From Bacteroidales bacterium Bact_09 (GTDB lineage Bacteria > Bacteroidota > Bacteroidia > Bacteroidales > UBA932): DNA of 64,000 nucleotides. The stretch is taken from NCBI GenBank assembly GCA_001603455.1, contig LUZA01000029.1:16179-80178 (forward strand), in the 5' to 3' direction. Both the position numbers and the translations under genes were made by a program. The notes below the pieces were generated by a model that made no database searches, was not told where the DNA came from, and was given only the letters and a program-made list of their open reading frames with translations. Numbering within the stretch: position 1 is the stretch's first letter; each line of letters opens with the position of its first letter. This document shows, one piece after another, positions 1 through 2,041 of this stretch.

Positions 1-548
1 TCAATTATTTTCATCATATCATCAGCGACCGGTTCTCCTTGTGACGAAAATACAATGTTAAGATTGTTTGCAGAAAATACTGAAACCCAATAGACCTGCA
101 AGCCGACCCTTCTGTATTGCTGCACTTCAATATCAATTCCTTTATCATGATATGTCCATAATGAAGGTTCTTTAGGCGCCATGGTTCCGGAAAGCTGATC
201 TTCCGGAAAGTTGCGTACGGAAGGAATAAGAAACGTTACCGCCAGCGCACCCAGAATAAATACCAGTACCAGGGAAGCGGCAAAGGCATAAATCTTCACA
301 CTTCCGGAGAACATCCTGTGAAAAAAGGATTTATCAGCTATACGCTTCATCACCTCCTGTGTTATATCAACTTCAGGTATTAGGTCCGCTCTTTCATTCA
401 TTTCACGGTGCAGTGCCAGCAGTTTAGCATACAGGTCATTGGCCTGTGAAGAAGATTCCACCAATGACGCGAACAGTTCTTCCTGGTGGCGGGACAGTGT
501 TCCATCCACTTTATTCTGTATAAGCAAGATGTCTTTTTCAGTCAACAT
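1..548 (-). CDS. Membrane anti-sigma-factor-like protein, partial (runs off the window start)
   Basis: Manual reverse translation from ATG at 548: MLTEKDILLIQNKVDGTLSRHQEELFASLVESSSQANDLYAKLLALHREMNERADLIPEVDITQEVMKRIADKSFFHRMFSGSVKIYAFAASLVLVFILGALA... It has one central TM helix and overlaps the upstream ECF sigma gene. No stop before the window edge, so it is absent from the ORF track. Confidence 0.7.
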   Translation of the reverse strand, partial: MLTEKDILLIQNKVDGTLSRHQEELFASLVESSSQANDLYAKLLALHREMNERADLIPEVDITQEVMKRIADKSFFHRMFSGSVKIYAFAASLVLVFILGALAVTFLIPSVRNFPEDQLSGTMAPKEPSLWTYHDKGIDIEVQQYRRVGLQVYWVSVFSANNLNIVFSSQGEPVADDMMKII

Positions 549-982
549 GTTTCAGGTTTTTTCCCAATTTTTCCTTTAACATCATCCTGGCATCGAACAA
601 TCGTGACTTTATCGTTTTTTCCGGAATTCCCAGTGTTTCGGAGATTTCGGAGTATGAAAGGCCGGTCTTCTTGCGCCATTTTCTCACGCAGGGTGATCTG
701 ACCGGGTTCCACACAGGACTTTCTGTTCCTTACGCTTAGCAATGCCCTGTTGATGGCCATGCGGTAGATCCAGCTGAAGAACCTGTATTGCGGATCATAT
801 TGGTTCAGCGATTCATACGTCTTTACAAATACGTCCTGTGTCAACTCCCTGGCTTCTTCGTGATTATTCACTATTTTATAAATCACACGGAAGACCGGGT
901 TCTGGTATCGTTCTACCAGTATCCTGTATTGCGCAGTATGGCCGTCAATGATCGCCCGGATTATTTGTCTTTCATCTGTCAT
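538..982 (-). pseudogene. ECF RNA polymerase sigma factor with C-terminal frameshift
   Basis: Region 2 is intact (MTDERQIIRAIIDGHTAQYRILVERYQNPVFRVIYKIVNNHEEARELTQDVFVKTYESLNQYDPQYRFFSWIYRMAINRALL). Region 4 (KKTGLSYSEISETLGIPEKTIKSRLFDARMMLKEKLGKNLKHVD) reads in another frame and ends at 538. Confidence 0.75.
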
Positions 983-1051
983 AAATCCTCAGGCTTTCAT
1001 TGCTGTAATAAATAGTATCCAACTTGTGAAAAGTTGGGTTTTTCTGAACTG

Positions 1052-2041
1052 TCATTGCAACAGATTGAGTTTCCATATATCCCGGTAGTTCATCCTGATC
1101 AGGGGGGAAAGCGCGATATCTCCTACCGGGCCTATCCTCTTTTGCAGAACCTTCAACTCGGCAAGCTTGGTATTAATTCCCTCTTCCCGGATCAAAGGGA
1201 AACCGTTTTCGCGGAGCATGATGTTACGCTTGGCCTTAAGCGACATTTCCAGGTAAAGCTGCAGATAACAGTACATATCCAGGATCACTTCCCCGGAAAA
1301 GCGGTCTTTAAGTGACATCAGATATTCCCCTGCCCTGGAAGCGGAAAACCTGCCCTGGCGGATCATTTTCAACAACTCCACCTCACTGCTCAACTCCAAA
1401 TCCATCCAGTCACGGAGTAGGTTTTCATTATATCTGAATACCAACACGAACAAAACGGGCAGGCAGATCATGATCGCCAGTGTCTGTATGAGGGGATGAA
1501 TGTAAAAGTGATTGAACAGGGAATGCACCACGTAAGTCAGGCCCAAACCTGCAAACACCATGGGAGCCACCATCCGGTCCCTGGATTTAGCCCCAATATA
1601 TAAAATGGCGAACAATGCCGTACAGCCGCCATGCATAACGGCCGTGCCAAAACCCCGTATGATCCAGGTAAATATGGATGTGTCTGGAAGGGAATAAACA
1701 TAAAACAAATTCTCACACAAGGCAAAACCTGTTCCGACCGCAAAACCATATATAGCGGCGTCTACCATGAAACCAATTCTTTTTTTACGGACCAGGTAGA
1801 AAATAAATAGTGATTTCAGCCCTTCTTCCACGGCGGGCGCCAGGTAACGGGACAGGGTATCAAAGGCACTTGAAGTGGATTCCTGTAAAAACGAATTGAC
1901 CAGGTAACTGATAAAAGCACACGCGCCTCCCCATACGCTGGCATAGAAAATTTGTTTTTTGATCACCAGCTTGAAACTGTCCATCAAAAACAGGAAAAGC
2001 AGGAAAAGTATTACAGGAAAGACGCTGAATACTATTTTCAT
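1052..2041 (-). CDS. PrsW-family glutamic-type intramembrane protease
   Basis: 329 aa polytopic protein with PrsW-like motifs VEEGLKSL, GFALCENLFY and MHGGCTALFA. Confidence 0.8.
   Translation of the reverse strand: MKIVFSVFPVILFLLFLFLMDSFKLVIKKQIFYASVWGGACAFISYLVNSFLQESTSSAFDTLSRYLAPAVEEGLKSLFIFYLVRKKRIGFMVDAAIYGFAVGTGFALCENLFYVYSLPDTSIFTWIIRGFGTAVMHGGCTALFAILYIGAKSRDRMVAPMVFAGLGLTYVVHSLFNHFYIHPLIQTLAIMICLPVLFVLVFRYNENLLRDWMDLELSSEVELLKMIRQGRFSASRAGEYLMSLKDRFSGEVILDMYCYLQLYLEMSLKAKRNIMLRENGFPLIREEGINTKLAELKVLQKRIGPVGDIALSPLIRMNYRDIWKLNLLQ

Follow-up and report, generated by a model that had tools for sequence, protein, structure and literature searches.

A PrsW-family protease gene clustered with an RsiW-like anti-sigma factor gene and a broken ECF sigma factor gene in a Bacteroidales bacterium

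Background

In the PrsW-RsiW-SigW pathway of Bacillus subtilis, the anti-sigma factor RsiW is a known substrate of the protease PrsW (YpdC), and its processing is completed by a site-2 protease and cytoplasmic proteases. The prsW gene of Bacillus is unlinked from the genes of its substrate and sigma factor. In the DegS/RseP-RseA-RpoE system of Escherichia coli, the site-1 protease for RseA is the PDZ serine protease DegS. We know of no defined sequence rule for PrsW substrates, and a literature search (with most subscription papers outside its scope) found none.

Signal peptidase has been described as the site-1 protease for RsiP (PMC8844934). A Gram-negative PrsW domain with a C-terminal extension is found in the Leptospira PrsW-PilZ fusion LIC_20173, and the motif residues of the family, as in B. 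subtilis PrsW, are enumerated in the same paper (PMC12943098). In Bacteroides, the Dma proteins are dual membrane-spanning anti-sigma factors, spanning both membranes; PrsW and proteolysis are absent from the text that describes them (PMC13088901).

We analysed a stretch of 64,000 nucleotides from Bacteroidales bacterium Bact_09 (the window). An earlier note on this DNA had read its first genes, which encode a PrsW-like protease, an ECF sigma factor and a membrane-bound anti-sigma-like protein, as a possible self-contained envelope-stress module. No description of the operon came up in a literature search that, again, left most subscription papers outside its scope.

Results

The PrsW-family protease gene

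The three genes lie on the minus strand in the order claimed for them. The ORF at 1052..2041 (-) encodes a PrsW-family intramembrane protease of 329 aa, which matched PF13367 with an E value of 4e-21 and 75.9 bits (curated cut-off 23.5), and it is the sole match to this family in the assembly. The four motifs of B. subtilis PrsW (EExxK, FxxxE, H and HxxxN/D) are present as E72E73xxK76, F106xxxE110, H137 and H173xxxN177, and an alignment showed these residues to be invariant across ten relatives. On the NCBIfam equivalog NF033739 (PrsW proper) the protein scored 34.5 bits, against a cut-off of 225, and it is best regarded as a member of the family and not as the Bacillus equivalog. Unlike B. 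subtilis PrsW, it carries a conserved C-terminal extension of ~120 aa. This is a likeness to Leptospira LIC_20173, but in a Pfam search the extension had no match. Nothing relevant was matched when the PrsW profile was compared with the PDB.

The short intergenic region between prsW and the aminotransferase gene (2042-2099) is conserved and contains TTG-N20-TATATTTAC, which ends beside the start codon of prsW. This element looks like a housekeeping promoter of Bacteroidota, and the prsW mRNA is possibly leaderless. No ECF-type promoter was assigned in the region upstream of prsW.

The broken ECF sigma factor gene

An ECF sigma factor gene had been placed at 538-982. Its start at 982 and its region 2 (Sigma70_r2, E 2.4e-14) stood, but the interval measures 445 nt, which is not a multiple of 3; start and stop were taken from two frames, and region 4 is out of frame. 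The open frame at 542..982 (-) encodes region 2 only, intact to ~667 and followed by a frameshifted tail. Region 4, LSYSEISETLGIPEKTIKSRLFDARMMLKEKLGKNLKHVD, can be read solely in another frame, as a remnant at 538..666 (-) that covers profile positions 140-181 and ends at the original stop TGA (540-538). Six relatives in the genus have one sigma ORF of 180-182 codons at the same place, and alignment to these showed that 98 nt are missing from the window at ~666/667 (98 mod 3 = 2), with the junction at 666..667 (-). Lost with them are the linker that connects regions 2 and 4 and the beginning of region 4. When a profile built from intact orthologues was run on the window, its match fell into two parts, model positions 1-113 (647-982) and 140-181 (541-666), in different frames; the intact orthologues themselves score 1e-101 or better against this profile. 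The relatives' orthologues contain regions 2 and 4 in a single frame, unlike the window gene; in L004 and L009, Sigma70_r2 and Sigma70_r4_2 were matched in one open frame with E values of about 1e-14 to 1e-16. SigW of B. subtilis was among the best NCBIfam matches of the sigma factors of intact relatives.

As sequenced, the window gene is thus unable to yield a normal sigma factor, and this copy has most likely lost its transcription output. A profile search of the genome for a second intact sigma copy found none, the next-best matches being other ECF factors (~6e-26). Programmed frameshifting was rejected as a rescue, because the start of region 4 and the linker before it are deleted as well, and joining the frames would leave region 4 incomplete. 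The remnant of region 2 shows a dN/dS of ~0.06-0.16 against the relatives, which is purifying selection similar to that on functional genes; the break should therefore be recent or artificial, and an error of assembly could lie behind the missing 98 bp. The other four genes of the set described below are open in this genome.

The sigma factor gene of a second member of the genus (G004, L027:10948-11262) is broken differently: it contains an in-frame TAG and has lost 74 bp between short direct repeats (ACAGGATG). This break is independent of that in the window.

The anti-sigma factor

The gene at 1..548 (-) starts at 548 and has its last 165 nt beyond the window start. Completed from the contig (L002:10014-10727), it encodes 237 aa. 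Its ATG (548-546) overlaps the stop region of the sigma factor gene, as the earlier note had it, and this overlap is conserved in intact relatives. No individual anti-sigma sequence passed the Pfam or NCBIfam cut-offs. A profile of 31 homologues had B. subtilis RsiW (5wuq_C) as its top PDB match (E 4.6e-6), with RseA (1or7) third and weak (E 0.21). The completed protein therefore bears out the reading as a single-TM anti-sigma-like protein, since it matches the family of a known PrsW substrate. In the AlphaFold model, four helices are followed by a TM helix, then a linker of low confidence and a beta-sandwich. For this periplasmic domain, Foldseek returned only generic beta-sandwich domains, weakly (best E 1.3e-3).

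Zinc-free variants of the anti-sigma domain exist. Among the 31 aligned anti-sigmas no conserved His or Cys of the zinc motif HxxxCxxC was found, and the protein is filed as RsiW-like in its domain and not as a zinc anti-sigma factor. From this homology and the overlapping genes, it is predicted to bind and inhibit the adjacent sigma factor. It has one TM helix and a small periplasmic domain, unlike the Bacteroides Dma proteins, which it resembles as a Bacteroidales anti-sigma factor putatively tied to the state of the envelope and outer membrane.

Two further genes, p376 and p982

Just beyond the window start lie two further genes, p376 (G000:C123:14835-15965) and p982 (G000:C123:11874-14822). 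The p376 protein is exported and has a single TM helix, with a helical domain and, as its tail, a series of short repeats. Its AlphaFold model has a mean pLDDT of 66, and no usable match was found with Foldseek (best E 0.36). In the family the tails are degenerate repeats of the D-x-E-x-LG type, and three loci (L038, L044 and L054) have four p376 paralogues in tandem within a single operon. The p982 protein (~980 aa) had no match in the PDB; HExxH is present near the N-terminus in 37 of the 39 long copies, and the C-terminus has an Omp85-like match that is weak and below the cut-off.

Distribution of the locus

We surveyed 64 loci in the GTDB genome set, 53 of which could be scored for the sigma/anti-sigma pair. 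In Bacteroidota the usual order is prsW, sigma, anti-sigma, one to four copies of p376, and p982. Intact prsW, sigma and anti-sigma genes occur together in six relatives of the genus, across Bacteroidota, in Ignavibacteriota and in one Acidobacteriota locus. This clustering of the three genes is far beyond chance, and the conserved unit comprises five genes, not three. Of the module claimed for the window, the grouping of the three genes was thus confirmed, in the genus and across phyla, but its sigma factor is broken in this copy, which as sequenced is therefore no working self-contained module.

The expected linkage held in part. The pair accompanies prsW in 37 of the 53 scored loci (two of these with a broken sigma), the deepest-branching loci included, but at least 16 loci have prsW beside p376, usually with p982, and no pair. 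PrsW must therefore have a role that is independent of the pair. Five of the pair-less genomes were searched for anti-sigma matches elsewhere: four had none and the fifth (G101) only weak ones. On a midpoint-rooted PrsW tree, the presence or absence of the pair takes about four changes, and the deepest-branching scored rows all carry it; we infer that the pair is ancestral and was lost a few times. Within the genus of the window, PrsW, anti-sigma, p376 and p982 are all present or all absent (in G002 the locus runs into a contig end). All of them are missing from four members (G005, G006, G008 and G009), which are also without an orthologous sigma.

The loci of Ignavibacteriota and Acidobacteriota contain the same parts in a different order, with genes nearby that were assigned as RsbW-like and STAS-like by sequence reading. 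Small STAS-like ORFs (about 95-100 aa) lie upstream of sigma or p982 in L067, L071, L072, L078, L082 and L084, and in several of these loci an RsbW-like ORF precedes the STAS-like one. These ORFs may form a partner-switch layer on the same module. L075 has the module twice on one contig, one copy with the anti-sigma gene and the other with prsW, p376 and p982 and without it.

A shared juxtamembrane motif

The anti-sigma factor and p376 are otherwise unrelated, but both have a motif of the form ~LxG[T/S][I/M], 9-15 residues past the TM helix in a segment that is predicted to be disordered. In the window it is LSGTM, at residues 119-123 of the anti-sigma factor (180-194, minus strand); in the p376 of this genome, its G and T are residues 40 and 41. 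All 31 aligned anti-sigmas have the form [LMV]x[GA][TS][MIL] at 9-15 residues past the TM helix if the pattern is applied slightly permissively (L057 has AKGLM). Most p376 proteins have LxGTIGKV at 9-12 residues, and three p376 rows with GTV or GAI are missed by the motif pattern. An automated count found the motif in 30 of 32 anti-sigmas and 46 of 53 p376 ORFs, homologous rows not being independent.

ORFs adjoining other ECF sigma genes had the motif in none of nine cases, most of them being too short past the TM helix for a fair control. The background was instead taken from neighbouring ORFs of the same loci, where 22 of 390 TM segments matched; five of the seven single-TM matches among these were unlisted homologues of p376 or the anti-sigma factor. 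When the two families were compared by hhalign, the aligned stretch was exactly the TM helix and the motif, with P 3.8e-5 at a probability of 71%, TM segments being known to inflate such scores. By information content, the G, T and M columns of the anti-sigmas occupy ranks 3, 14 and 17 among 237, within the low-confidence linker, where conservation is limited to the five motif positions. In p376 it extends further (GTIGKVxNYRNxxxTExDI).

A natural fusion of the two proteins was found in two Ignavibacteriales loci (L071:5665-6774 and L078:5668-6789), where a single ORF encodes an anti-sigma domain (residues 1-89) followed by a p376-type TM helix, a GTIGG motif and a tail of 9-residue repeats. 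The p376-type part starts at residue ~114 and shares 59% identity with the free-standing p376 of L067. The GS and GT variants of the motif tend to agree between the anti-sigma factor and p376 of one locus, with L049 and one p376 of L044 as exceptions; this is weak evidence, mostly from one PrsW clade. In seven genomes searched for further carriers of the TM helix with the motif, significant matches were only p376-type genes, mostly the copies of these loci, and for this reason no additional substrates are claimed. To our knowledge, B. subtilis RsiW lacks the motif, so that it would be a trait of this PrsW clade. Its position and conservation suggest that it could be the recognition or cleavage site of PrsW, with p376 as a second substrate.

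Discussion

The locus is probably one representative of an ancient operon for envelope signalling whose mode of action resembles that of SigW-RsiW-PrsW, and in which PrsW would cut at the shared motif, p376 would be a second substrate or a competitor, and the sigma output would be dead in this genome. The N-terminal four-helix domain of the anti-sigma factor would, by homology with RsiW, hold the sigma factor at the inner membrane. PrsW would recognise the motif just outside the TM helix and cut there, after which a general site-2 protease and cytoplasmic proteases would complete the processing and free the sigma factor; the genome encodes an M50 site-2 protease away from this locus. With the same motif at the same position, p376 may be cut as well or may compete, and through p982 it would report on the condition of the envelope. 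Such a role would account for the retention of PrsW alongside p376 in loci that have lost the sigma pair. The regulatory link between PrsW, anti-sigma and sigma is likewise a putative one.

What sets this operon apart from the B. subtilis system is that the protease gene shares it with the likely substrate and the sigma factor, that p376 and p982 are added and, in the window's genome, that the sigma is broken. The single-TM anti-sigma factor with a presumed N-terminal sigma-binding domain and the M50 site-2 protease are features in common with the E. coli system, where, however, the site-1 protease is DegS and not, as is proposed here, PrsW.

The 16 scored loci that have prsW and p376, usually with p982, but no sigma pair would also fit a system in which p376 (with p982) is the main substrate of PrsW, for envelope upkeep or processing, and the pair is a co-transcribed neighbour released via another site-1 protease. 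The absence of an anti-sigma match elsewhere in four of the five pair-less genomes tested agrees with this, as does the use of signal peptidase or DegS as site-1 protease in other systems. We regard it as quite improbable, since the anti-sigma factor is RsiW-like and bears the same juxtamembrane motif as p376, two loci fuse its domain to the p376-type TM helix and motif, and the pair looks ancestral, not added. The motif could, on the other hand, be a docking or assembly element common to both proteins, for instance for p982 or another periplasmic partner, and no protease site at all. Conservation in p376 continues past the motif, beyond what a minimal cleavage site would require, and the operon almost always includes p982; the anti-sigmas, however, conserve five positions only, in an unstructured membrane-adjacent stretch of the kind where an intramembrane protease works, which makes docking unlikely.

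The state of the sigma factor gene in the window is a separate matter. If its break were an assembly error, the module would be fully working in this genome; the purifying selection still visible on the remnant of region 2, the four remaining open genes and the fragmented assembly (165 contigs) speak for this. We consider this rather unlikely, because the sigma gene of G004 is broken in another way, the whole set is absent from four further members of the genus, and losses of the pair have occurred several times, so that loss is a recurrent path. For annotation, the sequenced form of the sigma factor gene in the window should be treated as non-functional.

Beyond the single locus, our reading of the whole clade is more tentative. 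The PrsW proteins from Bacteroidota to Ignavibacteriota and Acidobacteriota would be dedicated, by operon, to an RsiW-like anti-sigma factor and p376, and would recognise one motif in both; the envelope signal would run through p376 and p982, and the sigma factor would be optional and repeatedly lost. What appears to be new is the combination, in one operon, of the protease, its likely substrate and the sigma factor with two more proteins of the envelope and a candidate motif for recognition common to the putative substrates, in an arrangement that probably works like the known PrsW-RsiW-SigW pathway. Protease, likely substrate and output are thus brought together in a single operon, which occurs in several phyla and has natural versions without sigma for comparison, and a motif common to two unrelated neighbouring membrane proteins, together with their natural fusion, would provide a directly testable substrate rule for PrsW.
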